This document shows positions 6,502 to 48,854 of a DNA stretch of 64,000 bases, one piece after another (positions within the stretch are counted from its first letter, which is position 1; every line of letters starts with the position of its first letter). A model generated the notes under the pieces. That model was not told the origin of the DNA and did not search any database. It saw only the letters and a list, made by a program, of their open reading frames with translations. The translations under genes and the position numbers were made by a program. Source of the DNA: Flavisolibacter tropicus (lineage in GTDB: Bacteria; Bacteroidota; Bacteroidia; Chitinophagales; Chitinophagaceae); assembly GCF_001644645.1 (NCBI RefSeq), contig NZ_CP011390.1, positions 2,170,001 through 2,234,000 of the forward strand. Direction: 5' to 3'.

Positions 6502-7066
6502 AGAGTACACCACCGAAATCTTTCAGCTTCTAAGTAAAGGCAACTTTATATCATCAAATGCCTCAAAAGACCACGCAGGTAAACTCTACCGCTACATCAG
6601 TGAGGAAGACCACTTTGAACGGCTAAAAGCCTACTTCGCACTGATCAACCTTAGCTTGGAATGCGGTAATGGCTATTATTATTTTAGCCAGATCAGCGAA
6701 AAAGAGACACTAAGGGAAGAAAAGATCCTAAAATTTGAACGCTATATAGACATACTCGACCTTTTCACCTCCCTGGAGAACCCTCCATTTGTAGGGACCA
6801 GATACACAATCACCGAAATAGCACAGGAATGCCTGGGTAATCCCATGCAAAAAGAAAAGCTCGAAGAAATCCGAATTGGCGGCAACAAAGCCAATATAAC
6901 GGACAAGCTGCGGGAGATTTTGGATTTCTTGACCGCTGATACCTTTTTGGAATTGGAAGACGAAGAAACAGAGACTTATAAGGTTTTGGATTCCTTTAAT
7001 TATTTACTTGAAATTATTAAGCAGATCGAAATTTATGGAGAGCAAGCACTTTCGGCAACTGAATAA
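6482..7066 (+). CDS. jetB: Wadjet JetB-like KITE subunit (MukE-like)
   Basis: About 195 residues, starting at the ATG at 6482 (or 6488), which overlaps the jetA stop by about 20 bases. A longer frame from 6452 would overlap jetA more and begins in jetA-coding sequence. The protein has the size and mixed helical, winged-helix character of JetB/MukE subunits, including a hydrophobic stretch near YRYISEEDHFERLKAYFALI and a C-terminal helix. It sits between kleisin and SMC genes, as JetB does. KITE subunits dimerise and bind the kleisin and DNA. It overlaps jetC by about 32 bases, which suggests translational coupling. Confidence 0.75.
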   Translation: MFMNLHKEYTTEIFQLLSKGNFISSNASKDHAGKLYRYISEEDHFERLKAYFALINLSLECGNGYYYFSQISEKETLREEKILKFERYIDILDLFTSLENPPFVGTRYTITEIAQECLGNPMQKEKLEEIRIGGNKANITDKLREILDFLTADTFLELEDEETETYKVLDSFNYLLEIIKQIEIYGEQALSATE

Positions 7067-10730: not shown

Positions 10731-11603
10731 ATGAAACTTTCCATCACCACAGCACAGAATCTTTTAAATCTAGTAAAAGAGCAAGAAGAACTTAATCTAA
10801 GTGTCTTTAAAGGCAGCGGCAAAACACTGGCTGAAGAGTTGATAAAGGAAGGTATTCTATCATCAAGGAGAGTGGGAACAGCCATGTATAAAGTGAGGTG
10901 TAATTATCCGGACCGTCTCTCATCCTATTTAAAAAGCCAATATCAAATTGCGTCCCTTCCCTCCTATATTGAATTTCTTACAAATGAAGAATCAACCAGA
11001 GCGGACGCCGTGGAAGCAACGGGGAATTCAAAGTTTAAAAAAGGCAAGCTTTTCCAAGGCTTTTTGGTAAATGCGTTAGAACCCATTGAGATAATCATCA
11101 GCGGTGAGAAGGTGATTATTCAACCGGGGGGATCCCATTTTACCTTCATCCACGACTTTAGTAATATCGTTCTTGATAAGGCAATTACCATTGTGGGAGT
11201 AGAAGGCTTTGAGAGCTTTAAGCAAATTTCAAAGCAAAAAGCTCTTTTTGCTGGGACAAAGGCGCTATTCCTATGGCGCTATCAAAATAGTAATTCCATC
11301 ACTGATTGGCTTAAGCTTATTCCAAATAAATACCTGCATTATGGCGATTTTGATCTTAAAGGCATCCACATTTATATCACAGAGTTTAAAAACAAAATAG
11401 GTACACAGAGGTGTGGTTTTCTAATACCGGATAGAATTGAGGAGTTCATCTCACACCACGGAAGTCGCGAATTGTACCAGAAACAAATTAACCACTTGAA
11501 AGATTTCGATTTCAATGCCCATCGAGAGGTCGATGGTTTGGCAAACTTTATAAAGGCACAAAAGAAAGGGTTAGAGCAGGAATTTTTTATTCGTTCAAGA
11601 TGA
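10731..11603 (+). CDS. jetD: Wadjet JetD-like Toprim nuclease subunit
   Basis: The 290-residue protein starts at the base after the jetC stop. The C-terminal half shows Toprim features: a glutamate in IVGVEGFESF (about 158-161) and a DxD in LHYGDFDLKG (206 and 208). The N-terminal part would be winged-helix. JetD is the topoisomerase VI-like nuclease that cleaves plasmids once the SMC complex stalls. At 290 residues it is shorter than type I JetD (roughly 380), so it may belong to another Wadjet subtype (the DUF7281-like form); I cannot settle the subtype without a profile search. Confidence 0.8.
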   Translation: MKLSITTAQNLLNLVKEQEELNLSVFKGSGKTLAEELIKEGILSSRRVGTAMYKVRCNYPDRLSSYLKSQYQIASLPSYIEFLTNEESTRADAVEATGNSKFKKGKLFQGFLVNALEPIEIIISGEKVIIQPGGSHFTFIHDFSNIVLDKAITIVGVEGFESFKQISKQKALFAGTKALFLWRYQNSNSITDWLKLIPNKYLHYGDFDLKGIHIYITEFKNKIGTQRCGFLIPDRIEEFISHHGSRELYQKQINHLKDFDFNAHREVDGLANFIKAQKKGLEQEFFIRSR

Positions 11604-14814: not shown

Positions 14815-15414
14815 CTAGCCAAGAGTTAAAACAGGACTATTAATGGTTCTGAGCTGTCTTAAAGGAGTTCTTCCCATCCCATTTATCAGATCAAATTCAT
14901 TATAGATATTAGCAGTTGGCTTTCCGTATAATGCAAAGTAAAAATCATATGTTTTCATATAAGCATCATTGAGCGAGTAAGCATATATTGGTTCAAAGCC
15001 TGAAAGCTGATCGCCACGAACTGCATCAACCACGCAATTACACCCATAAACCACTGCAGAAGCCGTTGTATTCTCTTTCTTAAACATGTAAAGTTCTTCC
15101 AGCAGTCTAAGTGTGAAAGTGCACTGGACTTTATATTTTGTTTGTCCTTTTGCACGTCCTGCCTTAATAGTAAATTCTAAGGTATCTCCCCTTTCTGCTA
15201 TCTTCTTAAAACTGTAATACTTCTTTTCTTGAATCTCCTTATATAATTGCTCAGCATCTCTAGGAGGAGTAGGCTTGTTATAAGGGTCTACCGATAGTAA
15301 TTTATATTCCTCAATAAAAAGCCCAAATTCGGCTTCCTCAGATATTAGAATACGCTTATTTGTATCGCGATCATAAAGTTTACCATAGCGATAAACAACG
15401 TTAAATGATTTCAT
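14815..15414 (-). CDS. Hypothetical protein, 199 residues
   Basis: Not recognised. A soluble protein with a beta-rich N-terminus (FNVVYRYGKLYDRDTNKRI), a central helical segment and a C-terminus ending GRTPLRQLRTINSPVLTLG. It has two neighbouring cysteines (VYGCNCVVDAV). It starts 23 bp after the acyl-carrier/LnmK-like gene in the same direction, so it probably belongs to the same transcript. Confidence 0.6.
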   Translation of the reverse strand: MKSFNVVYRYGKLYDRDTNKRILISEEAEFGLFIEEYKLLSVDPYNKPTPPRDAEQLYKEIQEKKYYSFKKIAERGDTLEFTIKAGRAKGQTKYKVQCTFTLRLLEELYMFKKENTTASAVVYGCNCVVDAVRGDQLSGFEPIYAYSLNDAYMKTYDFYFALYGKPTANIYNEFDLINGMGRTPLRQLRTINSPVLTLG

Positions 15415-15437
15415 TAGTACAGATTAATATTTATTAT

Positions 15438-16535
15438 TTATGCTCCCGTCTTTTCTTTAACAGCTATCACTTTGGCTAAAGCCTTATTGTCGCTCTTACG
15501 ACTTAATGAACAAACATACTTGACGAGCTTTTCTTCTATCACTAAATTGTTCAACGTAAATGATATTGTATCATTACAATTGCAATTTGCGAAATAAAAG
15601 ATATCCCTATAGACTGTATGATAATCATCGCAAAAATTAATACTATTGTTTTCTTGTTTGAAATAATTTAAAATGCATTTATCTGCAATTGCTACATAAG
15701 AGGCAAAATATAATAGGCCAACCCCATTAATGTCATAAAAAGGGTTTAGGTCATATTCGCAAGAAAATATTGATCTTTCACTCAGATCAAACGTTCCAAA
15801 AGCACAAGCATACTCTTCCAGTAAGCTCTTTTTAAGAAGCCGATAATCATCTAGGAAAGGAGGTGTGTGTGATATCTCAGGAATATGGTTAACGCATTGC
15901 ACAGGTTTTGTTTTAACCATTTCATTATTGCCTCCATTCTCTCTAATCGAGAAAATAGTCATTAATGTGGCATCTATATTATTACTGTTGCTATCTCCTA
16001 AGATTTTACTTAAATAAGTCTCGTTGCCAAATCGATTTATCTCTCCCTTGAAGTTTATTATATTGTTTTCATTGAATTTTTTCAGGGAAGACAAACTGTA
16101 ATTAATTCTTACGAAGGTTGCGTATAAGCGATTCCCTAGATCATCTTTAAATTGAGAAGAGCTTTGCACTAAACCTTTTGAAAGTAAAAGCCAGTGCACA
16201 TCTCCTAAATACTTCATTAACCAGTTCTCAGACAAAGCACTATTTGCCATCTGCGGCATCCTTACTTCAACAATATCCGTCAGCTCTATGTCTTTACTTG
16301 CCGCTGATGTTATTTCATCACTTTTGCTATTATGAAAATAATGTATTGCTTCAGATAAAGATTGGAATTGATACCATACAGGATCTGTAATTACATGATT
16401 AAAGTGCTTTTCTAAGGCTACTCTAATCACAACAATATCAAGGCTGTCAATGTTTGTCTCATTGATTGGCAAATAAAGATCAGCCTCCGTAACAGATGGT
16501 AGCCCTTTTTGTATTATGTATAGATATTCCTTCAT
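15438..16535 (-). CDS. Acyl carrier protein domain fused to LnmK-like (Pnap_2097-type) hotdog domain
   Basis: Residues 1-70 look like an acyl carrier protein: NIDSLDIVVIRVALEKHF has the DSL phosphopantetheine attachment site (Ser31) followed by the usual helix, with FQSLSEAIHYF as the last helix. Residues from about 90 (MPQMANSALSENWLMKYLGD, LGNRLYATFVRI, GEINRFGNETYLS) resemble the LnmK/Pnap_2097 family of double-hotdog acyl transferase/decarboxylases from polyketide pathways. The gene overlaps the dual-OB-like gene by one base and lies in the leftward defence array. A carrier protein is unexpected there; an acylation step is inferred from the domains only. Confidence is good for the domains and low for the role. 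Confidence 0.7.
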   Translation of the reverse strand: MKEYLYIIQKGLPSVTEADLYLPINETNIDSLDIVVIRVALEKHFNHVITDPVWYQFQSLSEAIHYFHNSKSDEITSAASKDIELTDIVEVRMPQMANSALSENWLMKYLGDVHWLLLSKGLVQSSSQFKDDLGNRLYATFVRINYSLSSLKKFNENNIINFKGEINRFGNETYLSKILGDSNSNNIDATLMTIFSIRENGGNNEMVKTKPVQCVNHIPEISHTPPFLDDYRLLKKSLLEEYACAFGTFDLSERSIFSCEYDLNPFYDINGVGLLYFASYVAIADKCILNYFKQENNSINFCDDYHTVYRDIFYFANCNCNDTISFTLNNLVIEEKLVKYVCSLSRKSDNKALAKVIAVKEKTGA

Positions 16536-17251
16536 CAGAATGGCAGATCATCAGCAATATCATCAATTATTGCCCGAACATTTGCATGTAACCTATGAAC
16601 ATTTGCGTGCTCATAGATTATTCCTGCAACAAGCTTAGACGACCATTCTTCATGTGGCGCGGCAAGGGATAAAGTAACATACACTCTCTGCCTTCCTAAT
16701 AAAATATCATTATTCAATCCATAGTTGTGACGAAAATATGGATCAGTGATTGGGAGGTTATATAAAGTGCCATTATAACGGAAAGAAAGTTTTACTTGTG
16801 GATATTGGCGTCCTTCAAAATTCCTTTCGTTTGTCTCGAATTCATTTAATAATACTAACATCAAAGAGTAGTTAAAATCACTTACTTGATGCTCTGGCAC
16901 AGCAGCTCCGCGATTGCCGAAAACTAAATGGTATCGATTATTATCTGTAAGTACATCTAGATTAGTAATTGGGAATTGACCAACTACTCTAATGCTGTTT
17001 GTTTGAAAAAGCACATTCTCAGATTGGTGTCCATGACCATTTGCATGAATGGGCTGAAACTCAATAATATCTAAAAGATTAATGTGTGAGACTAATATAG
17101 TTGGAACCTCTTCATGTTCTGTATTGCAAACCGGCCTTATCCATTTTGGACGACCGTTTTGGAAGATTGGGTTATTGTTTTGGTCTAATTCAATGCCGCC
17201 AACGCAGCGGCCACCAACTCTAAAAGAGTTAGCTAAGCAAACGATCTTCAT
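16535..17251 (-). CDS. Dual-OB-domain-like protein
   Basis: The 238-residue protein starts MKIVCLANSFRVGGRCVGGIEL, continues with WIRPV and a LLDIIEF... segment near HQSEN, and ends in an acidic tail. This pattern matches the small family described as dual OB-containing proteins that sits beside DUF488 genes. OB folds would suggest nucleic acid or nucleotide binding. It is the middle gene of a tight run (4 bp after a DUF488 gene, 1-bp overlap with the ACP fusion gene), so it probably works with them. Function unknown. Confidence 0.6.
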   Translation of the reverse strand: MKIVCLANSFRVGGRCVGGIELDQNNNPIFQNGRPKWIRPVCNTEHEEVPTILVSHINLLDIIEFQPIHANGHGHQSENVLFQTNSIRVVGQFPITNLDVLTDNNRYHLVFGNRGAAVPEHQVSDFNYSLMLVLLNEFETNERNFEGRQYPQVKLSFRYNGTLYNLPITDPYFRHNYGLNNDILLGRQRVYVTLSLAAPHEEWSSKLVAGIIYEHANVHRLHANVRAIIDDIADDLPF

Positions 17252-17255
17252 GTAT

Positions 17256-17699
17256 TTATTTGATTAAGTGAATAATTTCTATATCACTCTTCACATGCTT
17301 TAAATACTCAGCTAACAATCTTCTATGACACTTTTCAGGAGTGTGTTCACTACACAATAAGCAGTGTTCATGCAGCTTCTCTATGTTCGTTTTCTGAGCA
17401 ACGCGCCTTATATCAAGTAGGTTTAAATACCCAACTTCATACTCTTCCCAAGACATTTTTTTATCCCGGTATTTGGTTAGCAACTCTTTTGTTGGTGCAA
17501 AGTCTATATTATGTTCATAGGACATATTCCCAATTTCCCTTGCAAAGAATCTTAAATCACTTCCTTTTGCGAAACCAGCTAATTGGGAAACATTGTTTAT
17601 GCGTGTATCAATTATTTTTTTAACACCTGCAGTTTTTAGCAGGTTAAAAAACTTCTCTGCAGGCTTTTCTGTAAATCCAATAGTGTAAAGCTTAATCAT
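17256..17699 (-). CDS. DUF488 family protein (second copy)
   Basis: The 147-residue protein has the family hallmarks: an N-terminal YTIGF strand, a conserved DTR in KIIDTRINN, and the C-terminal LLCSEHTPEKCHRRLLAEYL motif with paired cysteines and CHR. DUF488 proteins are small, soluble and uncharacterised, and are often linked to nucleic-acid conflict genes. It overlaps the preceding DUF488 gene by 8 bp. The two copies are quite diverged in sequence, which suggests two roles rather than a recent duplication. Confidence 0.85.
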   Translation of the reverse strand: MIKLYTIGFTEKPAEKFFNLLKTAGVKKIIDTRINNVSQLAGFAKGSDLRFFAREIGNMSYEHNIDFAPTKELLTKYRDKKMSWEEYEVGYLNLLDIRRVAQKTNIEKLHEHCLLCSEHTPEKCHRRLLAEYLKHVKSDIEIIHLIK

Positions 17700-18327
17700 G
17701 ATTTTCCTGTTGCGGTTGTTTTGAATAGGGCGAAAAGCCGATCTCTTTATTCTTTAATCGATACGCTTCTTTTAATTGATCTGCAACAGAAACATTAGGA
17801 TTGAAGATATCTGGCTTAGGCAGCTTTTTATCATACTTTTTTAAAAGTATACTTTCAAGATCGGTATGACTTTTTAGGCTTTTGTCTTTCAAGATATGTT
17901 TTACGTCAAAACCATCCCTTACTAACGCCAAGGAAACCATTGAAAACCTATGGCAGTCTAATGGTTCGCTTTCTGAACACATCATGGCAATTACAAATCC
18001 TTTTTCAACACCTTGCCAAAGTCTTTCAACTCCATTTTTAAAAGACCATGATTTTCTCACTTTTTCAAAGTCAACTTGCCCATCATCATCTAATAGATCT
18101 GGATCAGTAAACCTAGCACCAAATTCCTCTGAAAAGTGCAAATAAGTTACTCCATGATTCTTCAAATAATTTTTTAGAGGCTCTTGGTTATACTGTGGAT
18201 TATATGAACTAGCTGCCACACTTCGAACATCTATTAAACAGGTAACTCCATATTCTTGAATCAATGAAACAAAATAATCCAACTGGTGGGTTGAATGTCC
18301 TACAGTATATATTATTGGCTTATTCAT
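17692..18327 (-). CDS. DUF488 family protein (first copy)
   Basis: The 211-residue protein shows YTVGHS at the N-terminus, CLIDVRSVAASSYNPQYN, an acidic loop with FEKVRKSW, and the C-terminal MMCSESEPLDCHRFSMV motif (cysteine pair, CHR). This is the canonical longer DUF488 form, with a C-terminal extension ending KNKEIGFSPYSKQPQ. It starts 76 bp after the giant ATPase-helicase gene and overlaps the second DUF488 gene. The function of the family is not established. Confidence 0.9.
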   Translation of the reverse strand: MNKPIIYTVGHSTHQLDYFVSLIQEYGVTCLIDVRSVAASSYNPQYNQEPLKNYLKNHGVTYLHFSEEFGARFTDPDLLDDDGQVDFEKVRKSWSFKNGVERLWQGVEKGFVIAMMCSESEPLDCHRFSMVSLALVRDGFDVKHILKDKSLKSHTDLESILLKKYDKKLPKPDIFNPNVSVADQLKEAYRLKNKEIGFSPYSKQPQQENHD

Positions 18328-18403
18328 TTGCTATCAGGCTTACAAAATAATTCTTTTTCAGTAAAAGCAAAATATCCTCACGAACTATATATCCATACAT
18401 CCA

Positions 18404-21400
18404 TCAATCATTAAACTTTCTTAGCTGAATGTCAATTGCTCCTTCATTAGCTTTTATAAAGTATTTCATTTCAATTTGCCCAAATACGTTCACGTTATCA
18501 TGCCCAGTTATGTAACTATTCTTCTCAATAAAATCTTTTTGTCCGAAAATATGCTTTTCGAACTCTGAACACTTTCTAATAAGTGGGTTTTCAAAGTGCT
18601 TGTGATAGCTAGAGCATATAGACTGAATAAAATGATTCCCCTTGATTGTTTCGAAAGGATGCAAAATGACCAAATAATCTCTAGCTCTACTTATTGCAAC
18701 ATTGTATATATACTCTTTAGATAAAAGGCACTTAGGATGCCCTGTATAGTGATAATTATTTGGATTTGAAATAAAGAACACAATATCGCATTCATCCCCT
18801 TGGAAACCATGGACTGTATCAGCATATACTTTTAGTTTATCTGACAAGCCGTATGATGTAACTAACTTGTTTAGCAATACAGCTTGCGCTTTATAAGGAG
18901 CAATCAGCCCAACTGACCAATTTTCTTTTTCGTCTAACAGTGAGTCAAGGTACTTTAGTAACTCTGCGACAAAGATGGCACTATAGGTATGATATGAGCT
19001 ATATAAAAGCTTACTTATTTTAAATATAGAATTATCAGCATTTAAAGGGACATCTATAAACGTTACGTTCTTATTAATCAATTTTGCGAAATTGGATGGA
19101 AGGGTTTTAGCTTTATTATTCTTATTCTCCCGATCATGCTTTAATTGTTCCCCATATGATAATGAACTAAAGAGCTGACCAATTTGCTTAACACTTCTAT
19201 ATTGCGTTTCCAGGTTTGTGATTCTATCTACACTTCGAAGGTTCTGCTCAGAGCTTTTAAAGCTGCTTATACCCATCATAGTATAAACGTTCTCGTCTTG
19301 TAAATCCAATTCTTCTAAATCTTTATCATTTACATCTACAACCGGTGGAATTTGTTTAGGATCACCTGCCACAATGAACTTAGCATTAGGGTTAAAATTG
19401 TGAATAGAAAGGATTGCAAAAACCAGGTATGGTAAATTAATCATTGATGACTCGTCAAAAATCACATAATCCCAATGATCTTTCAACTCGAAAAGTCTAT
19501 AACTCTCATCATTTTCATCGTCCATTACTTCAAAGTATGGGATTCGATGTATAGTAGAAGCAATAATATGGGCATAATCCAACTGCTTCATATCTATTGA
19601 GTCGCTATAAACGCCATCTTCCAGAACTTCTAATTCAGGATCTGTCGGCTTACCAACCCTAATAATAGATATAGATTTACCAGCCTTTTCTAAACTGTCT
19701 AATTTACCCCTTACAATGTCTCTATCATTATCAGATGGTAATAATAACTTCTTGCATAAAACGTCTGCAGCCTTATTTGTTGGTGTTAGTAATAGATATT
19801 TTGCGTTATACTTTTCGCTTACACCATCTATTATAGAACAACAAAGTGATGTAGTCTTGCCTGTTCCAGGAGGGCCATATATAAAATGTAAGCCGGGTAA
19901 TACATCTTTGATTTCCTCCCAAACATTTAAATAATATCTATTGCTAAATGCACTATATAATCTTTGCAATAAATCTATAACAGGAGAGAAACTAATCTTA
20001 ACCTGGATCACATCTTTGAAAAGACCTATTGTTGATTGAGATAAAGGCTCTCTACAATAGATTAAAAGATCTTGACCTTTTTTTGATACCCCTTCTACAA
20101 AAACATTTTCGTTTTGGCGGTTTTTTATGATCAGTGTAATTCGAAAATCTTCAAAATCTTCAATGTTTACAGGAATTAGAGAGCTTGCACCACATAGCAG
20201 AAAGTATTTGTTTGAAATTTCGCCATTGATAGCATAACGCTTAATCTCTTGAAATGATATTGTTTTTTGTCTTGTATTATCCTGCTTGGTTTCAAATGTT
20301 AACAAGAACTTCAAATATGAATCAAACCAAGCATAAGAATAATCATCATTTGACTTTATATCTTCAATAAGCTCCTTTCTTTCTTGTTTTAGATTCTCTT
20401 CTTGAAAAGCAGACTTCAGGGCTTCCAAATGTGCTGTATTGACTTCACCTTTGCCAGCAGCATTTAAAGTATTATAGAAACTTGCTAACATTATGTTCCT
20501 TCTATGTATCAAGTTTTCTACAGCCTCCGAAAGATGTTCATAGTCATCTTCTAACTGATCTCTTAAGTCTTCTAATGAAATGCTTTGTAAATAATGAATT
20601 GTTGTAACCTTTTCACCTTCTTCAACATAAAAAGAGCCTTCATCAACCCTTCCAACCATAATCATAATATCATCTTCTGTGGATATTGAAACATCATAAA
20701 AAAGTTCTCTCTCTTTAAGAAGTTCAATATCATTTTCTTCTTTCCATTGATGATAAAATGGCTCGTCATGTTCTTCGCTAGTTTCATTTATAATGAATGT
20801 TCTATCAAACTCTAGCTCAGTACTACTATTTACCACTGCTTCATCCACAGAAGAAGACATGCGGAGTACACTATAACTTTGGTAAACTTTATTTAATTTA
20901 TTTTCACCATACAGCGTTAACCTGGCGTGTAAGTCCTCATTTATTGTGTATATATCCTCTATGCTTGAATCTAATATTCTAAAGGTATCAGTTGTGTCAT
21001 ATACAATTACAGGAAATTCCCCCAAGTCAGAACAAGCCAAGTCATTGACGACTTTTTGAATTAATTCCAAACGATCTTTATCCCTGTCCGATTGATAAAC
21101 GATGTACTTCCCGGCTAATGGTATAAAAGCACCTGCGGCACCATTTAAAGAATTCAGTAGCAGCTTATTACTAAAGGCCTCAACCTTAACTGTATCAGGC
21201 AGATCACTGATTTCACCTAATAAGTATCTTCTCAGCTTTTGAAGAGGGCTGTCATTAACATGAATACCAAGTGCAATAAAAAAATCATCCTTCCTTTTTA
21301 CCTTATTATGCCACAATATGAACTCCTCGGGCAAGCATTCACTTTCCAAACAGATTCCGTTTAGCACATACTCATTTGGAGATAACCCCAGATAATCTTC

Positions 21401-24400
21401 CCAATCCTGATTTCTTTTATACTCTTTCGCTTGCTGAGACAGATTGATCCAACCTTTATATAGATAATTTAGCTTATCGCTTATTTCGGCTTCATTATCT
21501 AAAATTTCAGGATTACAACCTTTTACAAATAAAAATCTGGGAGCTATTATATCATCTTCACCTTCCCCATAATTAAACACTTCCAAATCATTAAGCTGTA
21601 ATAAGGATTGCAAATCATTATATTCTCTATTTAGTAAGTAAGAGCCATGTATATAACTTTGATTTTCTTCTGAAAAAATTATTATTGGTTTCTCTATAGT
21701 ATACCATTCATCATTATGGGACTTAAGCTTATAATCCTTAAAATTTTCCTTTTCAAATCTACCAGACAATAAAACAAAGAGCAATTGATGTGAGTTTACC
21801 AATTGATTATCGCTTAAGTTAGCAGTAAACCGAGATACTAGCTCATCAGTAATACCCACATCAGACAACTTGAAAAGCTTATCTGCACTTGTTTGACTAA
21901 TTAAATCCCTCTTTTTAGCTTCATCATGAAAAGCTTGAATTAACTTAATATTCTCAGCACTTTCAAGATTCAAGATTTGGGACTGGGACAATATTATTTC
22001 TTTATCCTCTCTAAACACTTTTATTGAGTCATGAGCACTATCTATGTCTCCTATTATAATTTGTTGGTCATCTTTATTAATTACTATTTTATTATGGATT
22101 TGAGACAGTTCTTCTGAAGAGATGTCACCCTCTACAACTTCTTTTAAAAGTTTTATATACAGCTCATTTTCTCTTACCTCCTGCCAATTGGCATCTAAAG
22201 TTGTATATGTAAGTTTCTGAAGCAATTCCTTTTTATCATCAAAGCGCTCCGGTAGAACAATTTCAACTAAATCCAACTCTTGCTCTAGATTATCATCCTC
22301 ACTAAAAATGTCAATCAAATGAGATATTAATTTGCTACCCGATAACTCTATTTGCGATTTATAACTTTCAAAGCTGTTAGGTATAAGTATAAAATCATCA
22401 GAATAATACGTTTTAATATATTTTTTTACTGCTGGTTTGGATGTAGCTATTTGTACCTTTCCAGAAGAGCTTACATAGTATTTACCATCAGAAAGACTAA
22501 TATGGTTAGATGCAAAAAAGTCAAGGTTACAAACTTTAGAGAACAGCAATAAATCATTTATCTCTTCTAAGCTGCTAACTGTCTCCTCGATATCTAATTG
22601 AATGCTATATGGGGTATAAGAAAGAGGTAACTTATCCAGATAAGGCAATACATACTTATCCGGTATATGGCAATCAAAATATTTAAGTACTGATAATTGA
22701 ATATTTTTAAAATCTTCATCAGTAAGATTTAGCAAGTCATTATTGTAGTATATCTTTTCTGATTCAAGGACCTCAGCGTTAAATATTGCCAGTTTAGAAT
22801 TATGAAGTAGAAAATTTGACTTTTCTTGCCAAGTACTTTTCTCATATGCATCAATAATAGATTCTAAAACTTCTTTGGCCATTTTATGATTAGAAGCTAT
22901 GTAATTAGCTATCTGATCCCAAAATGGTAGTATAATGCCTTGGTATAACGACTCTGGCTTGTCAAGAAGGTAGCTTTTATAACTAGCATTATCTTCAGAA
23001 CTATTGATACAAAACTTCTGTAACCAAGGGGCAGTAGACTTGGCATACAAATTCTTGAACCGTACATGAACATTATTGTTGTTTCTAAACAACTTCAGTT
23101 CTCCCATCCTATCGCCTGGCGAATCATTTAAAGTCCTGAAGGCTTCGAAAATTCTATGCTTCTCACCAATAGTCAACTTTGCCAACTGATCATCATCGAC
23201 TACTTGACTGAACAACTTTGTTAATATCGTATAACTCTTAACCTGAGACTCGTTAGCGAAAAAACCGAAATATTTTGGATTGAAATTGTAGTCATCAAAG
23301 TTATCTTTCGTATAAAACAAACCGAGCTTTTGTAGTAAATCCCGAATATCATTGAGCTTATTAAAGATAATGAAGTACCCATCTTTTTCTTTTTCTTGAA
23401 ATTCTGTTATAGCGAGAATCTCCTCATTATTGAACTTCAACAACTTTGTAGCAAAAAGATTTTTTTTGAACGTTTGATCTTTAATTAGCTCGCCATCCAG
23501 AAATTTAATTTCCGATAAGATAGCTTTGGCTTTAGCATGATCATTACCTATCCAATTATTCAAGTGAGTGCTTATAGTGTCATTGGAAGTAAGTAAATTA
23601 TAAATTGCAAAACCTTGCACACCAAGCTTCAAATCTGCATTAATTCGTATTGATGGCTCTGCATCTTCTCCCCAATAAAACCAATTAACATCTTTTAAGC
23701 CCCACTCATCAGTATCAATATCAACGTTCGTTTTCTTTATAAAAACACTCTCGGGATTATCAGTTATTTCAAAATCAGTTGATCCATTTGATGACTTAAT
23801 AGGGATATACTTCTTAATTACTTTGTCTATCTGGTTTATATATGGGTCTTCGATCCATTTCCTGTCCTGGTTTAAGCTACTACCAGATGTTAGCAACGCA
23901 GCATAGAAATCAAGGAACAATTCTCTTTCATCCGGGATTGTAGAAGTGGAAAGACGATTTAGTTCACTATCTATCTTTTCTACAATAGTTTTTAACAAAC
24001 GCTCGTTTATACCGTCTTCCTTGCTACTGCCCTTATGCAGGAAAGTACGAGAGCTGCCTTTATAGAATGCATTAGAATGTAGTATATAGTTAAAATTGTG
24101 GACCTCCTCTGACAAAGGAAAATAGAGGTATAAATTAGGTGCTCCTTGAAAGTAGTCATGTATTTCATTATGCCTCCTAAATCCAAACAGCGCTTCAATA
24201 TTTGCTTCTTCTTTAATTTCTTTCCTTTGTTCTTCTGTTAGTTCTTCAAAATTCTGAACACCAAAACGCACATATGCATACGTATCTTTTTCCGTCTCTT
24301 TATCAACCGTAAGCTTTATAAACTTCAAATCAGGGTAAGTAATTGGATCTTCGTTATTTAACTGTACAGTTCGAAGAACTTTGTCTTTTCTCATCTCTAC

Positions 24401-25333
24401 ATCTGCCGTTTCCCTCAGAATGGCTAAAGCAAACCTTACTCCCCCTTTTAAATTTTTCTCAGCCAGTTCTGTTTCCTTACCAGTACCTAACTTGATAAAA
24501 AATAAAGACCCCTCATTATAAACTTCTTTATTTAAAATGTGGCTATTGTTCTTGACCCAACGAGATAAAACTTCATATTCCGATTTACTAAAAGGAGACA
24601 GTTGCGCTTTTTCGCCAGTTACCATTTTAGGTAAGTCTTGTATTAATGGGTTTTCCGGCAAACAGGGAAAGCAAGTGATTAATATCTTAAAAAGCCAGGG
24701 ATTTTCGTCTTTAATAAGAATTTCTCCTTTTTCGTTTTTAGCTATGCTCAATTCTTTTGGAATTGGATTAGAGCCCGCTGCCAACTTTGCTAACTCATAA
24801 TTTTTCCAACTAAACAACAAGGGGCCTGAGCTTTCATTGATCAACTCGTGCAGACCATTGTCTTTACCCACTAATCTATGTGCTAGCTTGAAGCCAATTC
24901 CAAACTTACCAATGGTTCTACTGTCGGCACTTTTAGTAGATGAACCAACATTTAGTATAGAACGAATGCTATTCGGGCTAAACATTTCACCGTTATTAGC
25001 AACAAGCAAATAGTAATTACCATCTATTTCATCTTTGCCCCAAACCATAGTATAATGGGTACTGCCGGCATCTACAGCATTTTGCAGAAATTCATAAACA
25101 GCTTGTCCATCCTTAGCCATATCCAAGAAACTTTGCAAAAAGTTTTTAATACCTGCTTCAGGAGTGCTAAAGCCATCTCTATCCCCATGATACATGGTAA
25201 ACCAACCAAAGTTCTTTTCACTAGTGGCTTCTTCAATATAGTAGTTACCTATAAAGTCTTCTTCCAGTGAAGTAGAAACTGGACGCGTTGTTTTATAAAA
25301 GCTCCGATACTGTTTAATGTTTTTGATTTCCAT
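18404..25333 (-). CDS. Giant HSP90/sacsin-type ATPase fused to SF1 helicase, 2309 residues
   Basis: The N-terminus carries a GHKL ATPase of the sacsin/HSP90 type: EFLQNAVDAG (81-90), NNG (113-115), GKFGIGFKLAHRL (142-154). A region of roughly 1600 residues without motifs I recognise follows. The C-terminal 500 residues are an SF1 helicase of the Upf1/Dna2 class: GPPGTGKT (about 1820-1827), FDESSMIN (about 1960), ETQYRS, VHGFQGDECDIVFF and YNVAISRARDYLVI. The combination suggests a sensor or conformational switch driving a nucleic-acid motor. It is cytoplasmic, lies in a long leftward array between a CBS-HEPN gene and DUF488 genes, and has its own 104-bp leader gap. I know no named system with exactly this neighbourhood. 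Confidence 0.88.
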   Translation of the reverse strand: MEIKNIKQYRSFYKTTRPVSTSLEEDFIGNYYIEEATSEKNFGWFTMYHGDRDGFSTPEAGIKNFLQSFLDMAKDGQAVYEFLQNAVDAGSTHYTMVWGKDEIDGNYYLLVANNGEMFSPNSIRSILNVGSSTKSADSRTIGKFGIGFKLAHRLVGKDNGLHELINESSGPLLFSWKNYELAKLAAGSNPIPKELSIAKNEKGEILIKDENPWLFKILITCFPCLPENPLIQDLPKMVTGEKAQLSPFSKSEYEVLSRWVKNNSHILNKEVYNEGSLFFIKLGTGKETELAEKNLKGGVRFALAILRETADVEMRKDKVLRTVQLNNEDPITYPDLKFIKLTVDKETEKDTYAYVRFGVQNFEELTEEQRKEIKEEANIEALFGFRRHNEIHDYFQGAPNLYLYFPLSEEVHNFNYILHSNAFYKGSSRTFLHKGSSKEDGINERLLKTIVEKIDSELNRLSTSTIPDERELFLDFYAALLTSGSSLNQDRKWIEDPYINQIDKVIKKYIPIKSSNGSTDFEITDNPESVFIKKTNVDIDTDEWGLKDVNWFYWGEDAEPSIRINADLKLGVQGFAIYNLLTSNDTISTHLNNWIGNDHAKAKAILSEIKFLDGELIKDQTFKKNLFATKLLKFNNEEILAITEFQEKEKDGYFIIFNKLNDIRDLLQKLGLFYTKDNFDDYNFNPKYFGFFANESQVKSYTILTKLFSQVVDDDQLAKLTIGEKHRIFEAFRTLNDSPGDRMGELKLFRNNNNVHVRFKNLYAKSTAPWLQKFCINSSEDNASYKSYLLDKPESLYQGIILPFWDQIANYIASNHKMAKEVLESIIDAYEKSTWQEKSNFLLHNSKLAIFNAEVLESEKIYYNNDLLNLTDEDFKNIQLSVLKYFDCHIPDKYVLPYLDKLPLSYTPYSIQLDIEETVSSLEEINDLLLFSKVCNLDFFASNHISLSDGKYYVSSSGKVQIATSKPAVKKYIKTYYSDDFILIPNSFESYKSQIELSGSKLISHLIDIFSEDDNLEQELDLVEIVLPERFDDKKELLQKLTYTTLDANWQEVRENELYIKLLKEVVEGDISSEELSQIHNKIVINKDDQQIIIGDIDSAHDSIKVFREDKEIILSQSQILNLESAENIKLIQAFHDEAKKRDLISQTSADKLFKLSDVGITDELVSRFTANLSDNQLVNSHQLLFVLLSGRFEKENFKDYKLKSHNDEWYTIEKPIIIFSEENQSYIHGSYLLNREYNDLQSLLQLNDLEVFNYGEGEDDIIAPRFLFVKGCNPEILDNEAEISDKLNYLYKGWINLSQQAKEYKRNQDWEDYLGLSPNEYVLNGICLESECLPEEFILWHNKVKRKDDFFIALGIHVNDSPLQKLRRYLLGEISDLPDTVKVEAFSNKLLLNSLNGAAGAFIPLAGKYIVYQSDRDKDRLELIQKVVNDLACSDLGEFPVIVYDTTDTFRILDSSIEDIYTINEDLHARLTLYGENKLNKVYQSYSVLRMSSSVDEAVVNSSTELEFDRTFIINETSEEHDEPFYHQWKEENDIELLKERELFYDVSISTEDDIMIMVGRVDEGSFYVEEGEKVTTIHYLQSISLEDLRDQLEDDYEHLSEAVENLIHRRNIMLASFYNTLNAAGKGEVNTAHLEALKSAFQEENLKQERKELIEDIKSNDDYSYAWFDSYLKFLLTFETKQDNTRQKTISFQEIKRYAINGEISNKYFLLCGASSLIPVNIEDFEDFRITLIIKNRQNENVFVEGVSKKGQDLLIYCREPLSQSTIGLFKDVIQVKISFSPVIDLLQRLYSAFSNRYYLNVWEEIKDVLPGLHFIYGPPGTGKTTSLCCSIIDGVSEKYNAKYLLLTPTNKAADVLCKKLLLPSDNDRDIVRGKLDSLEKAGKSISIIRVGKPTDPELEVLEDGVYSDSIDMKQLDYAHIIASTIHRIPYFEVMDDENDESYRLFELKDHWDYVIFDESSMINLPYLVFAILSIHNFNPNAKFIVAGDPKQIPPVVDVNDKDLEELDLQDENVYTMMGISSFKSSEQNLRSVDRITNLETQYRSVKQIGQLFSSLSYGEQLKHDRENKNNKAKTLPSNFAKLINKNVTFIDVPLNADNSIFKISKLLYSSYHTYSAIFVAELLKYLDSLLDEKENWSVGLIAPYKAQAVLLNKLVTSYGLSDKLKVYADTVHGFQGDECDIVFFISNPNNYHYTGHPKCLLSKEYIYNVAISRARDYLVILHPFETIKGNHFIQSICSSYHKHFENPLIRKCSEFEKHIFGQKDFIEKNSYITGHDNVNVFGQIEMKYFIKANEGAIDIQLRKFND

Positions 25334-25437
25334 GGCAGTTATGTTTTGATAGATGCTTTTGAATTATTTAGTCGTTTTCTTTAAGATTGTGCGAATTGGC
25401 TCTCCCCATTTATGTTTTTACAACTTACTTTTTATAT

Positions 25438-26277
25438 CTAGGATGAAACATTGTTTGCAAATGAGAACCTTAATGCATTTTCAAGTTCCTCTATTTTAAC
25501 AGTAGCCTTCCATAAGTCATTTAACGCACCGCGACTTTTTACTAAACTTTTATTTGGATGCGCAATGCCATTTCTAAGTGCTTTTAATTTACCAGAGCTC
25601 CTCTCAAATGTTTCTTTTGTTTTGTAGCCTAATTTTTTATACAACTGGAGCTCTGATATCAAAAGGAAAAGATCACTTAAGTACAAGTATTCAATAATGC
25701 TGCTGTCCATGCCCTTTTTGGCATCTTCCTTAAATCTTCTTGCTGAATCCAATGCAGATGGAATATCTTTTTCCTTTCCCCAAAGTTCCAATGAATCTAA
25801 AATCTGACTTGTCTCCAAGCTATCACACACAAACTTTCCTAGCTCTCGTTCTAAGGAGCAGATAAGATTATAATAATAGATAGCAACATGCTTACAGTTC
25901 AAATTGCCTATGGTAATCAGTCCAATTACAGTTGAATGATTGGTAAGGAAATAAAAGTCCCTATCATTGTCACTCATCAGCCTAATTACATCTTTTATGT
26001 GCGTCAGGTAATATAAGCAGTCTTCTTGCTTTATTCTGCTCCATTTGATGTCCTGAACAGAATACTTACCCCACTCTTCTGTATGATAAAAGGTATTTAC
26101 GGTTCCGTCTTTATTTATTTTAGGCAGAATATCAAAGCCATATTCTACCATCTTTTCATAAGCATCAGATAAGGTTTCATTTGACTGAGTACATATCCAC
26201 TCTTTTTGCGAAATGCCTACAATAGCCGCATGAATTTCAGGAGTACTACCCTGACTGAAATAGTGATATTCCATCAT
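25438..26277 (-). CDS. CBS-pair-like plus HEPN-like protein
   Basis: Residues about 15-125 resemble a CBS domain pair: ETLSDAYEKMVEYGFDILPKI, then DVIRLMSDNDRDFYFLTNHSTVIGLITIGNL. The C-terminal half is all-helical and ends in KLKALRNGIAHPNKSL, where R235-N-G-I-A-H240 fits the RNase motif R-x4-H of HEPN domains. CBS domains bind adenine nucleotides; HEPN domains are often RNA-cleaving toxins. A nucleotide-gated RNase effector is a reasonable reading, but unproven. It lies between the nuclease gene and the giant ATPase-helicase gene in the same direction. Confidence 0.6.
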   Translation of the reverse strand: MMEYHYFSQGSTPEIHAAIVGISQKEWICTQSNETLSDAYEKMVEYGFDILPKINKDGTVNTFYHTEEWGKYSVQDIKWSRIKQEDCLYYLTHIKDVIRLMSDNDRDFYFLTNHSTVIGLITIGNLNCKHVAIYYYNLICSLERELGKFVCDSLETSQILDSLELWGKEKDIPSALDSARRFKEDAKKGMDSSIIEYLYLSDLFLLISELQLYKKLGYKTKETFERSSGKLKALRNGIAHPNKSLVKSRGALNDLWKATVKIEELENALRFSFANNVSS

Positions 26278-26359: not shown

Positions 26360-27073
26360 TTATGGTATCACATTAAAAGTTTTACCAACAATAAATTCCC
26401 CTACCTGCTTTATACAATCAACCTTGCAAGCATCTTTATGTTTATCTAAAACAGAGGCATTTGACAATAAAGCATTTGCGTTCAAGTCTTTAAATGAACC
26501 AAAGTTCAACTTTACATTTTGCGACTTCCTGGCTCTTAGTAAAACTTCAACAATGTGACTAAATTCATTTATTTGTGATACCGAAATTTTTCCTGGCTCT
26601 TTTGGCTTTCCATTCTTTCTTTTAGGATATACATATTTTGCGTCTAGCAATAACACAACATCATCACCAGCAGGATCATCATTTTTGGGAGCGGATGGCT
26701 TTTGAAAAGAAATGTCAGGATGATGTATGGTGTCAGGCGCATCTTTTCGCTTAATGCCAGTTCCGGCACAGACTAAATATAATGGCTTGCCTTTATTATC
26801 CGTAATTTCATAATAGGCCCAATTTTTCTTTTTAGAGGAAGGTGCCGCCGGGAACTTCCGAGATCCTCTTAGATGGACCTTCTGATTTGGAACATTATTG
26901 ATTTCGCAAAGTATTTTTAAATAACACCAAAACTCATAGACGTAATTTTCCTTTGTAGTCTTAACTATATGACCAAAAGGTTTCTTAGAACCTTTCCATG
27001 ATGATACATTTTCAATGCTTTTCGCAAAGGAATCTATTTCTTTAAGCAAAGTAGTCCTAGTAGAGGCCGGCAT
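26360..27073 (-). CDS. PD-(D/E)XK nuclease-like protein
   Basis: The 237-residue protein shows the order of a PD-(D/E)XK fold: a glutamate in NYVYEFWCYLKIL (first helix), HPDISF (aspartate), VVLLLDAKYVYP (D-x-K) and a glutamine helix SVSQINEF. Many basic residues surround the core, consistent with DNA binding. It lies 4 bp after the EVE-like gene in the run that begins with two helicases and a methyltransferase. A nuclease gene beside an adenine methyltransferase suggests the restriction activity of the cluster, or a McrBC-like partner. Its specificity is unknown. Confidence 0.6.
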   Translation of the reverse strand: MPASTRTTLLKEIDSFAKSIENVSSWKGSKKPFGHIVKTTKENYVYEFWCYLKILCEINNVPNQKVHLRGSRKFPAAPSSKKKNWAYYEITDNKGKPLYLVCAGTGIKRKDAPDTIHHPDISFQKPSAPKNDDPAGDDVVLLLDAKYVYPKRKNGKPKEPGKISVSQINEFSHIVEVLLRARKSQNVKLNFGSFKDLNANALLSNASVLDKHKDACKVDCIKQVGEFIVGKTFNVIP

Positions 27074-27077
27074 ATAT

Positions 27078-27917
27078 TTAATTTAGTGATATGGGTAATG
27101 GAATTGAATTGAAAGACGCACCAAATGATGCCTCATCGCTTGCAACAGTTTGTATCTCATTTAATAGCGCTGTCAAATAGTTTTCGCCAAATTCTGATCC
27201 CAAGAAAGTATTGCAGATACTTACCTGTTGCATAATATTATCGTTCCTCTCTCTTTTCCCATGCTCAGAGAACTCCAGAGTATGGGCACTATTTTCATCA
27301 AGCCTTAATAAATAGTCACCTATCTCGCGCATCATTTCAATATCAGGATATATATAATCCTCAATATATTCCTTGAGCATCTGAAATGCCTCTATATAAT
27401 TATTACCTCTTCTAAATAGCTGAGTATTATCTTGTATAATCTGCTGAAGAAAAGACTTTCGATGTTCCAAATGCAGGCCATTCACGACTTTCCCAAAAGC
27501 TGTTCGCGAGATGAAGATCTGGCTATTCGTTATCGCTTCATAATCATGGTCAGGTAAGTGGCTGTATGGCTCTCTAAAGTGCTTAATTGGGTCATTAAAC
27601 CATTTATTAATTTTCAAAAGCGTATAACTAAAATCTTTTAAGCTGTTTGGCTCAGACAATGCTTTGATATCAGTAACAGTTACTTCAAAAAGGATTTTTG
27701 TGTTTCTAACACCTTCAGAGTTTGATCTTCTGATTTTAGAAATAGTTCCCTTATGTGAAAACCTCCACCTACTATTATCCAATAAAAAGACAACTTGGTC
27801 GCCTTCAGCACCACCGAAGTTTCTTTTTTGTAAGAACGAATAAACAAGTTCAGGTCTATTACTGTTTAATGTTTGAATTATATTAGGGTCTGTCGTTTTA
27901 AAAGCCCAATATTTCAT
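27078..27917 (-). CDS. EVE/PUA-like domain protein
   Basis: The N-terminus (MKYWAFKTTDPN, then GAEGDQVVFLLDNSRW and GTISKI) has the look of an EVE/PUA-like domain, which typically reads modified bases. The rest (residues 120-279) is helical, with no motif I recognise. It lies 11 bp after the methyltransferase gene and 4 bp before the nuclease gene. Reader, nuclease and methyltransferase together would make a modification-sensing restriction set, but the EVE assignment is by pattern only. Confidence 0.45.
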   Translation of the reverse strand: MKYWAFKTTDPNIIQTLNSNRPELVYSFLQKRNFGGAEGDQVVFLLDNSRWRFSHKGTISKIRRSNSEGVRNTKILFEVTVTDIKALSEPNSLKDFSYTLLKINKWFNDPIKHFREPYSHLPDHDYEAITNSQIFISRTAFGKVVNGLHLEHRKSFLQQIIQDNTQLFRRGNNYIEAFQMLKEYIEDYIYPDIEMMREIGDYLLRLDENSAHTLEFSEHGKRERNDNIMQQVSICNTFLGSEFGENYLTALLNEIQTVASDEASFGASFNSIPLPISLN

Positions 27918-27928
27918 AAGTACGAATT

Positions 27929-30900
27929 TTAAAATAGTTCTTCCTGCCCTTCTATTTCTTTCGCCTTCTTTTTTGATTTCTTCTTATCCCATAACCCTGC
28001 CTTTACTTCCTCTTCATGTATTTTATGGTTTAGCTCAAGCAACCGCTTTAACACTTCTTTGCGGGCATCAGGGTGGATAGTAAAGCGAACGCGATCATTT
28101 TCAGGTAGATAATCCACTTCATAGAAGTCATGGCGAAGCTGTATATCACTCCAGCCATAGGCATCCAGTACGGAATTGTCCATTTGCACATGTAATTCAC
28201 GAAGTTTTTCTATATTAATGATCGCTTCTTCTAGTGTGCAAGTGCCTAATGAATTGTGCAAATGATTCCAAAGATTCCACACTTCTTTGCCGTACTTTTT
28301 TTCTATATCCTTTTTAGTCAAAGACTTCAATTCATTAGATGTGACCTTATAATGAACCTCCTGTGCATGAAAAGCATTATAAGTTTTAGTCAGCCCCAAT
28401 TGCATAGATAACATAAGTTGACGACGATGTTCATCATACTGTCGCCCAATATTTTCTAAAACTTCCCCTATTGTAATTAGTTCTTTTTGAGGGAACGGGA
28501 ATGTTTCAAATACATCAGAAGGTGTATATCTTATATCTGACTTCAAAGCCGAAGCATATTTATGTACCCACTCCTTATGTATAGTTGACTGCAGATAAGA
28601 AAGCCATAAGTTGCTCTCAAAAGTTAGAGCTATACACATCATTGATATGACTTGATTGGTAGGAACAAACACAAATCCAAGAGTTTTGCTTACTTGTGCT
28701 ACTACCAAAACCCTTTGCATTGGTTTCAAAGCACTATAAAGAGCGGGTCTTTTCTCACCATAAATCCACCATTTTTCAGGAAGGGGCTTCCTCAATGCAT
28801 ACTCCCCAACAATTTCATTTCCATCTTTATCTTTTGCCCAGCGTTGTCTTTCTGGCTTAACTAACTTCTCAACAATACTATAACAGGCTTCATATTCTTG
28901 AGCTTTTTCTTCCGTCCAATCAAAATAATTAATTACCCATCGACTCGCGCTTTGATCTGGACTATTGTTCAAATCCTCACCGCTTAAATAAGGCATTAAT
29001 ACCTCCTTATTAGTCTGATCCTGATTAATAAGATTGCTCGCTTCATCTGGCTCTAATAAAAACCCTTTCCCAAGAACTATACTCCCTTGGAAACTTTTTC
29101 CTTGATTTTTAATTAGGGTGAAGGGATTACCAATTGTTTCTGAATCATCTAAATAAGGTGTAATAGTAGTTACTCGTCTACTTGAAAGAAAAAGTTCGCC
29201 TTTCCAAGATTTTTTAGTGATAGTGACCAATGAAACTTCAACAGCCGCCTGCCCAGGCCATTTCATACTTCTAACAGCATGGTTAATTTTACCTCCACTT
29301 TTTACAATTATATCTAAACCATCTTCGCGAGCCTTTCCCTGACTTATGGTATTTGTTGAAATCAACGATTGAAAACCATTATTATTTATTATTGAGAATA
29401 TCCTTCTGAAGAAATATGTAACTAAATCAACCGCACCAATAGGCTCAAACTGTTTTTTTATACATTCTAAATAATTATCTCCGAATGTTCCAGACAACTT
29501 CTGGCCACCTAAAAATGGAGGATTTCCTAAAATGCAATCAAACCCACCTTGTTCAAATACTTCCGGGAACTCTAAAAACCAATGAAAAAACCTCTTATCA
29601 TTAGATACTTGCTCAGCTTTTGCCAGCTTAGAACTTTGTAATATTCCTAAATGTTTGTTTACTTGTCGTAAGAAGCTGCGATATTCAGTATCCGTTATTA
29701 AATAATGTTTATTACTATCTGTTTTAGTAATAAAGAACTGTGCTATTTGTGCATCTGCTAGTTGACGTAATCGTATCCTATGATAATCATGCTCAAACTT
29801 TCGATATTGTTTTTCTTTGTTTGCGACTTCATCTGGTGTACGTTCAGGTAATTTTTTAAACAAATTATATTGTTCAATGATCGCCTCGACTTCGGCGTTA
29901 ACATCTACACCAAAACCTAGCTCTGTCTGTTCCTTTTGTTTGCGTTCAGCTTTGTTACGTCTCAAATAGGCAGCTGCGATCCCCTTATCATCACCAGGCA
30001 ATGTTTTAAAGGCCTCATCAGCAATACCTCTTTCTAGCTCCTCCCTGTGCGCTAAACCTATAATAGCATCCCCACATTTAATGTGATGATCCAAAAAGTT
30101 AAGTGGTTCACCAGGATTATGAGCTTCCAGCCACATTGCTACTTTACATAGCTCTACTGCCAATGGATTCTGATCAACCCCATATATACAGTTATTTATC
30201 ACATCTCTTATGGCTAGCCTCAATACTGTTGGCGAAGGTTGATCTTCCTTACTGCGTAGCTTGGCTAATTCAAAGCCAATGCGTCTAGCAGCAGAAAGCA
30301 AAATATGACCACTACCACAAGCTACATCGCAAACCTTCAAAGAGAGTAAGGCCGCTTCTGGATCTTTCTCCTTCAACTTGTCTACAATTAAGTGATCCAA
30401 CGAGTGTTGGATTAGTGGCTTTACCAATTCTTCTGGTGTATAATGGCTACCGCTTTTGCTACGTTCATTTCCTTCTTTAAATATAAAATGTGGCTCTCCT
30501 CCTAAATCTACTAGCTGTGGTTCATACTCCAACAACCCTTCGTATACCGAACCAAACTCTTCTACATCTAGATCAGCATAGTTTACGCGTACACGCTGGC
30601 CTGTTTCACTTTCAAAGGTTACAAGATTGCGCAGGACTTTTAGTACCGTTTCATTGTCCAGCATCTGCTTGCCCATAATACCTAACGCATCTGGTGCAAA
30701 CAATCCCGAGCCAAGTGGTGCAATGCCAAGTTGTGCGCTGTACTTACTGTGCTCAAATAAAGCAAAGCAGGTTACCAACGACTGCCATAAATCTGTTTTC
30801 TTAGGATCTACATAAACTGTTTTTTCCACTAGCTTGCTTAAGCGCTGTACGCTATAGTAGTTATAATAAATAGCCCTTTGCTGTTCCAGCTTTTCATTAC

Positions 30901-31810: not shown

Positions 31811-31813
31811 GGT

Positions 31814-34654: not shown

Positions 34655-34658
34655 GTTA

Positions 34659-47261: not shown

Positions 47262-47278
<17 letters not shown>
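47123..47278 (+). CDS. Small protein preceding the serine recombinase, 51 residues
   Basis: The frame starts MIDAAICRKLLEEDGNHYSEQELLEI and ends NSKSNGNAE, overlapping the recombinase start by 17 bases. Small helical proteins of similar size and pattern precede recombinases in other Bacteroidota mobile elements (recalled pattern, not verified). The overlap with the recombinase start suggests coupled translation. Confidence 0.55.

Positions 47279-48854
<1,576 letters not shown>

Follow-up and report, generated by a model that had tools for sequence, protein, structure and literature searches.

The question raised by the locus described here is whether genes that follow one another on one strand also form one system. 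In Flavisolibacter tropicus, a stretch of 64,000 nucleotides of contig NZ_CP011390.1 (positions 2,170,001 to 2,234,000, hereafter referred to as the window) contains seven genes, g1 to g7 in the order of their transcription, which a preliminary description had presented as a single candidate defence module situated next to a DISARM- or Druantia-like core. All seven open reading frames (ORFs) were confirmed, co-directional on the minus strand at window positions 14815-26277, and their domain reading, based on Pfam, PADLOC and NCBIfam, proved correct: profile matches identify g2 as a HATPase-SF1 helicase, g3 and g4 as DUF488 proteins, g5 as a protein with a dual OB-containing domain (DuOB) and g6 as a fusion of an acyl carrier protein (ACP) domain with an LnmK-type domain, and g1 is probably a CBS-HEPN protein, its scores lying below the cut-offs. 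The block that these genes form is a defence-island stack, in which a CBS-HEPN gene and a Tiamat-like helicase gene, each standing alone, an operon of four genes (g3 to g6) and the orphan gene g7 lie downstream of a separate core. That the block is composite and holds a coherent four-gene operon is close to certain.

The conserved operon and the composite block

Scanning the genome_contigs collection with an alignment of the ACP::LnmK protein g6 returned eight loci, which is an undercount because the scan relied on two strict peptide patterns. At seven of the eight, the genes DUF488-DUF488-DuOB-ACP::LnmK follow one another on one strand and in the same order; the eighth (L048) is counted apart in this tally, its contig beginning 141 base pairs (bp) upstream of g6. 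The seven operons are spread over distantly related bacteria: according to the record titles, two belong to Bacteroidetes metagenome-assembled genomes (MAGs), one to a Prolixibacteraceae MAG, one to a Chryseobacterium, two to Ignavibacteria MAGs and one to a Desulfuromonadales MAG. The overlap of 8 bp between g3 and g4 is identical in the window and in six of the seven loci, small gaps being approximate in this comparison, in which the BLAST alignment set the gene starts. In pairwise comparisons of the loci, the identity values of g3 and g4 rise and fall together (r = 0.85 over 28 pairs); DuOB tracks the DUF488 pair less closely (r = 0.49 and 0.48), and the value for g4 versus g6 is 0.53. Between loci L046 and L047, nonsynonymous divergence (dN) is 0.016-0.068 and synonymous divergence (dS) is 0.43-0.79 across the four genes, and such low dN relative to dS indicates purifying selection on all of them. 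No gene besides the four recurs with the operon when its surroundings are compared with the window proteins. The four-gene operon is thus a real, conserved and evolutionarily coherent unit, and the one such unit of the block. Among the 295 genomes of the class, ACP::LnmK is present in one, the window's own.

The operons are not uniform in every respect. The window DuOB is 65% identical to that of the Desulfuromonadales locus (L052) and 51% identical to that of L046, while the DUF488 proteins of the window are closer to those of L046 (81 and 88%). This discord of identities suggests that DuOB may have been exchanged.

The tight spacing that had been ascribed to the whole block applies to g3-g6, where the gaps are -8 bp (g3-g4), +4 bp (g4-g5) and -1 bp (g5-g6). 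It does not apply elsewhere: 82 bp separate the core from g1, 104 bp g1 from g2, 76 bp g2 from g3, and 23 bp g6 from g7. The gap sizes suggest that the block is made of sub-blocks, and the comparative data agree. A simple scan for transcription signals, in which promoter-like sites occurred at chance level and one terminator-like site was found on the plus strand, is uninformative.

It could still be argued that all seven genes make up one new defence system, since they are co-directional, belong to a single island and have no minus-strand terminator-like site between them in the same simple scan. Such a system is extremely improbable. The loci of g2 relatives in eight other genomes lack g1 and g3-g7; the contexts of g1 and g7 relatives that could be read differ; and gaps of 76-104 bp divide the sub-blocks, as opposed to -8 to +4 bp within g3-g6. 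Genes g1, g2 and g7 are likewise absent from the available stretches of all eight ACP::LnmK loci, which reach 8 kb or more upstream in five cases (L047 and L050-L053) and 2 kb or more downstream in six (L047-L049 and L051-L053). When g2 itself was searched for in seven of these genomes, nothing was returned, an empty answer that carries no weight without a positive control. Co-occurrence of the seven genes in other genomes, on which the single-module proposal had been made to depend beforehand, was not seen: the set falls apart and is found in full at no other locus, and for this reason the seven-gene system is rejected as largely refuted.

Components of the operon

The DUF488 profile PF04343 matches g3 with 64.2 bits and g4 with 69.1 bits (cut-off 22.2), and the C-x-E...CHR signature is kept in both proteins; the match of g5 to the DuOB profile PF22557 scores 140.3 bits. 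The preliminary description knew of no named system that covers these genes. This holds for ACP::LnmK, which matches no PADLOC model, and does not hold for the three genes before it, which PADLOC already assigns to its candidate system PDC-M45: M45A matches g5 (114.9 bits), M45B matches g3 (183.2 bits) and M45C matches g4 (198.7 bits), the three being adjacent at 16535-18327. All three models of PDC-M45 are therefore matched by neighbouring genes, but their order is B-C-A here, unlike the three plasmid loci examined in which all three are present and the order is A-B-C, and the ACP::LnmK gene is added after the set. The operon is a partly undescribed variant of PDC-M45 that carries an acyl-carrier enzyme. 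Most PDCs of the core set of one survey are termed unvalidated in the available text of that paper (PMC12988326), and M45 is mentioned neither there nor in PMC13356809. None of the terms DUF488, HATPase, dual OB, acyl carrier, CBS and rhodanese occurs in a paper on BREX diversity (PMC12839542). The literature searched, a scope that leaves aside the 2023 paper by Burroughs and Aravind on the rhodanese-phosphatase superfamily, where it would most be expected, did not describe the combination of DUF488-DuOB with ACP::LnmK, and among the papers listed there was nothing pertinent that links the LnmK family or acyl carrier proteins to antiphage defence.

The DUF488-DuOB set is sporadically distributed and is carried by plasmids. 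An M45C-type match is present in 128 of 72,556 plasmid records (six of the 128 were examined, as were both plasmids with a DuOB match) and in 10 of 395 genomes of the phylum; DuOB was found in two of the 395 by a single-sequence search, the window's own genome being included in both counts. The arrangement DuOB-DUF488-DUF488 occurs on plasmids of Agrobacterium, where it lies beside CBASS genes, of Rhodovastum, and of Allochromatium, where it lies among CRISPR genes (Csx16, Csm6, Cas1). Among the genome_contigs loci, the Chryseobacterium operon is located directly downstream of type I restriction-modification (R-M) genes. The R-M, CBASS and CRISPR neighbours, the plasmid carriage and the patchy distribution support a reading in terms of defence; a defence role of the operon is unproven, and its participation in conflict with phages or plasmids appears slightly more probable than its absence.

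Three further plasmid cassettes (L071, L072 and L076) combine DuOB-DUF488 with DUF4326, which in Moraxella is fused to mSLOG and which in L076 rests on the record annotation only. They share DuOB and an M45C-type DUF488 with the operon and differ from it in their third partner, DUF4326 or mSLOG-DUF4326, with no ACP::LnmK in the stretches examined. Different third partners can accompany the DuOB-DUF488 pair.

In the window, g6 belongs to the family of LnmK, the bifunctional acyltransferase/decarboxylase of the biosynthesis of the antibiotic leinamycin. Its LnmK domain scores above the NCBIfam cut-offs of both TIGR04098 (151.4 bits versus 100) and TIGR04099 (140.6 versus 125). The whole sequence matches solved LnmK chains (PDB 4hzo and 6x7l) with an E value of 1.2e-5, a match carried by the second half of the protein, where the NGVGLLYF loop with Asn270 aligns at 23.8 bits. 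LnmK, a methylmalonyl-ACP decarboxylase, decarboxylates by means of an asparagine on a loop that resembles that of malonyl-ACP decarboxylases, according to the available text of PMC8666670. The PP-binding profile scores 16.2 bits on the N-terminal ACP domain, under the Pfam cut-off of 20.8, and this region matches solved ACPs with an E value of 2.7e-6. Ser31 of the ACP domain is kept in 118, and Tyr138 and Asn270 of the LnmK domain in all, of the best 120 listed of 638 homologues, the query counted in. Compared with LnmK of the leinamycin pathway, g6 has a family score above cut-off and conserved tyrosine and asparagine columns, but differs in having its own fused ACP and in residing in a DUF488-DuOB operon rather than in a polyketide cluster.

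LnmK relatives on plasmids (21 matches, five examined) offer a comparison with other contexts. The tyrosine and the asparagine are present in all five, and no fused ACP is seen in their annotated proteins; one of them is fused to what appears from its sequence to be a hexapeptide-repeat transferase. A methylmalonyl-CoA mutase gene adjoins two of the five on the downstream side, which fits with a methylmalonyl substrate.

Neighbouring genes, upstream core and other features of the window

The features of the window are listed in Table 1.

Table 1. Genes of the block, of the upstream core and of other parts of the window (window coordinates).
Feature	Position	Strand	Remarks
g1, CBS-HEPN-like	25438..26277	minus	R-x4-H at residues 235-240
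g2, Tiamat (TmtA)-like HATPase part (residues 1-1686) and C-terminal SF1 helicase	18404..25333	minus	Pfam, PADLOC
g3, DUF488, PDC-M45B	17692..18327	minus	CSESEPLDCHR at residue 117; opens the operon
g4, DUF488, PDC-M45C	17256..17699	minus	CSEHTPEKCHR at residue 116; overlaps g3 by 8 bp
g5, DuOB, PDC-M45A	16535..17251	minus	Pfam, PADLOC; presumed nucleic-acid binder
g6, ACP domain with Ser31, joined to an LnmK-type acyltransferase/decarboxylase domain in which Tyr138 and Asn270 are conserved	15438..16535	minus
g7, orphan family	14815..15414	minus	199 residues; elsewhere never seen beside the four-gene operon
Core, overall	27929..39815	minus	three genes
Core, DEAD/DEAH helicase	34659..39815	minus	DruE models best, 302.5 bits; DrmA 46.5 bits
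Core, SNF2 helicase	31814..34654	minus	DpdE 547.1 bits, above DrmD 286.2 bits; DrmA 176.4 bits
Core, MmeI/DrmMI-like methyltransferase	27929..31810	minus	DrmMI 815.9 bits
Gene between core and g1	27078..27917	minus	279 residues, unassigned
Gene between core and g1	26360..27073	minus	237 residues, unassigned
Four genes resembling Wadjet	5275..11603	plus	JetC 17.2 bits, JetD 16.6 bits (PADLOC)
Metallo-beta-lactamase-like protein	781..1860		LmuA 377.6 bits (PADLOC)
Serine-recombinase-like ORF	47262..48854		3' end reaches into a tRNA-Ala gene of the other strand

Gene g2 indeed encodes the switch ATPase-helicase of 2309 residues that had been announced, with Pfam matches to AAA_12 (80.1 bits), AAA_11 (51.3), SACS (44.0) and HATPase_c_3 (33.3). 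The motifs named in the preliminary description were all located: GPPGTGKT at residue 1820 and NNG at residue 113 of g2, R-x4-H in g1 and CHR in g3 and g4. The part of g2 listed in Table 1 as Tiamat-like matches the PADLOC model TmtA with 569.8 bits; the SF1 helicase is extra to this profile and distinguishes g2 from Tiamat, and g2 is a neighbour of the operon and not its member. Counting the window's own genome, 10 of the 298 genomes belonging to the order have a g2 match at E <= 1e-30, several of these matches being partial, and none of g1 and g3-g7 was seen beside g2 in the displayed loci of eight of the nine other genomes (G099 was left out). In a genome of the same genus (G047), a g2 relative with 73% identity is located between AbiE genes and Qat-like and BREX genes; a search of this genome for DuOB, M45C, g1, g6 and g7 gave no match.

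Gene g1 matches CBS with 20.4 bits and HEPN_Apea with 14.8 bits, in each case below the threshold (24 and 24.4, respectively). Among 18 aligned homologues, however, R235 is invariant and H240 nearly so, and because of this conservation g1 is probably a CBS-HEPN protein with a putative HEPN RNase motif. Its score against the CBS anti-phage protein DS11 (NF053863) is 19.6 bits, far from the cut-off of 260. With the query, 28 proteins make up the family at E <= 0.001. On a Hymenobacter plasmid (L064, 14953-16401), a g1 relative is contained in a longer protein annotated as DUF3293, with type I R-M genes about 6 kb downstream; none of g2-g7 is annotated around this one readable relative, and no ORF was recovered for a second, weak match (G139). 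The family of g7 has 21 members, the query included. Matches to g1-g6 are absent around two distant g7 relatives, one of which is just 589 bp from its contig start. The other (L066, 10162-10779) ends a methyltransferase-containing gene run, after what appears by its sequence to be an ArdC-type antirestriction protein. The plasmid search gave no match for g7 or for the 279-residue gene.

The expectation of a DISARM- or Druantia-like core next door was borne out in that a core of two helicases and a methyltransferase exists upstream; it fits neither system cleanly and is separate from g1-g7. The class 1 DISARM set consists of DrmMI, DrmD, DrmA, DrmB and DrmC, and Druantia combines DruE with further Dru genes. 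The core genes resemble these systems in matching DrmMI, DpdE/DrmD and DruE models, but among the matches listed there is no DrmB, no DrmC and no Dru model besides DruE. This gene trio, in unchanged order and with 41-48% identity, is also found on Caballeronia and Paraburkholderia plasmids (L081 and L082, the two examined among 96 plasmids that match the core methyltransferase), where an SMC/DUF2326 gene follows as the fourth; no match to g1-g7 was found near these plasmid cores in the stretches examined. A whole-genome search for the core gave one partial match beyond the window, on an 8.3-kb contig (G036) that ends inside the methyltransferase gene; the two plasmids attest more clearly to the independence of the core.

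Four genes elsewhere in the window resemble, by eye, a divergent Wadjet system (JetABCD-like); the JetC and JetD scores are very weak, and the first two genes have no match. A metallo-beta-lactamase-like protein matches LmuA. The overlap of a serine-recombinase-like ORF with a tRNA-Ala gene possibly marks the integration site of the island. A viral origin of the block genes was considered and rejected, since no confirmed relatives were found for the genes searched: alignments of g6, g7 and g1 had none in IMG/VR contigs, and g6 and g4 had none in phage records.

Possible chemistry of the operon and its alternatives

The composition of the operon suggests a chemistry. The LnmK domain would take a (methyl)malonyl group from coenzyme A and load it onto the phosphopantetheine carried by Ser31 in the ACP domain of the same protein, where its decarboxylation would leave a short acyl thioester. 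DuOB would hold nucleic acid, on which a phosphate, sugar or base at the terminus would be made ready by the two DUF488 enzymes, members of the rhodanese superfamily; a nucleotide or a derivative of ADP-ribose might take the place of the nucleic acid. The acyl group would then be transferred to the prepared end or nucleotide, and the product might mark self, block foreign nucleic acid or act as a repair cap. Beside a restriction-like core, the operon would be an add-on. We assign a probability of about 0.45 to this explanation as a whole, i.e., to the operon as acyl-thioester machinery within a defence-island stack. Loading and decarboxylation by ACP::LnmK are suggested by family membership and the conserved residues. 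Acyl transfer to nucleic acid or a nucleotide is a tentative proposal, its substrate, acceptor and purpose all being conjectural. That acyl-carrier thioester chemistry is employed here for the first time in a conflict or nucleic-acid-processing system, with a new mark or cap as the product, is rather unlikely, "first" being limited to the literature searched.

Several observations weigh against this explanation. To our knowledge, LnmK transfers acyl groups to ACP only. Tyr138 of g6 falls on residue 61/62 when the solved chains are aligned to it, where Tyr62 of LnmK is presumably the acyl nucleophile, but this stretch scores 1.8 bits; the equivalence of the two tyrosines is suggestive, and because of the low score we have slightly lowered our confidence in an LnmK domain active on acyl-ACP, which we still regard as probable. 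In Azospirillum, one of the five plasmid LnmK relatives has a separate phosphopantetheine-binding gene nearby, so that an ACP partner is not special to the operon and only the fusion is. At none of 17 other loci with the DuOB-DUF488 set is there a match to g6, some of the contigs being short (one of the 17, L045, has no DUF488 match by BLASTP despite the report of the profile search). At L053, ACP::LnmK is split across two frames, the first ORF alone having entered the identity table. Two operon copies have neighbours of a housekeeping kind, namely an RNB nuclease and a polyprenyl synthase at L047 and a phosphoglucomutase at L049. Finally, on an IncC plasmid (L073) the neighbours of a lone M45C-type DUF488 gene are UvrA and genes of the formaldehyde response, and on a Comamonas plasmid (L075) such a lone gene adjoins UvrB.

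The last two observations would be expected if the operon repaired or capped damaged DNA or RNA ends and were not primarily a defence system. The UvrA and UvrB neighbours fit repair as well as defence; the sporadic distribution of ACP::LnmK and M45C among the genomes, the plasmid carriage and the defence neighbours speak against a repair function, which we consider unlikely. No more probable, in our estimate, is a small-molecule signal, in which derivatives of ADP-ribose or of nucleotides would be processed by DUF488 and acylated by ACP::LnmK, giving an acyl-nucleotide messenger or toxin. The presence of DUF4326 or mSLOG-DUF4326 as the partner of DuOB-DUF488 on three plasmids would agree with this, as DUF4326 is predicted, in the available text of PMC9503650 and PMC7824862, to process terminal phosphates on ADP-ribose and to bridge signalling by nicotinamide adenine dinucleotide and DNA modification. 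No sensor or effector gene common to the operon loci was seen, however, and DuOB accompanies the DUF488 pair in the full-set loci, which would favour a polymer as the substrate. A small natural-product cluster, with the DUF488 proteins as tailoring enzymes on an ACP-bound acyl group, is suggested by the plasmid contexts of LnmK relatives, which include one cluster of polyketide synthase (PKS) type and biosynthetic clusters of nitrilase/radical-SAM type. The window has no PKS gene among the genes at 14815-39815 in Pfam, PADLOC and NCBIfam scans, no ketosynthase was found among the sampled operon neighbours scanned with Pfam or PADLOC, the operon has no further recurring gene, and DuOB is an OB-type and presumably nucleic-acid-binding domain; this possibility is therefore very unlikely.

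We know of no established reaction for the DUF488-DuOB pair. If ACP::LnmK feeds this pair, a domain combination carried by plasmids and defence islands would obtain a concrete chemistry, with an acyl thioester as the input and an acylated nucleic acid or nucleotide as the output, and, if true, this would widen nucleic-acid modification to polyketide-type building blocks. Even otherwise, the unit of interest for cloning at this locus consists of four genes and not of seven or twelve.

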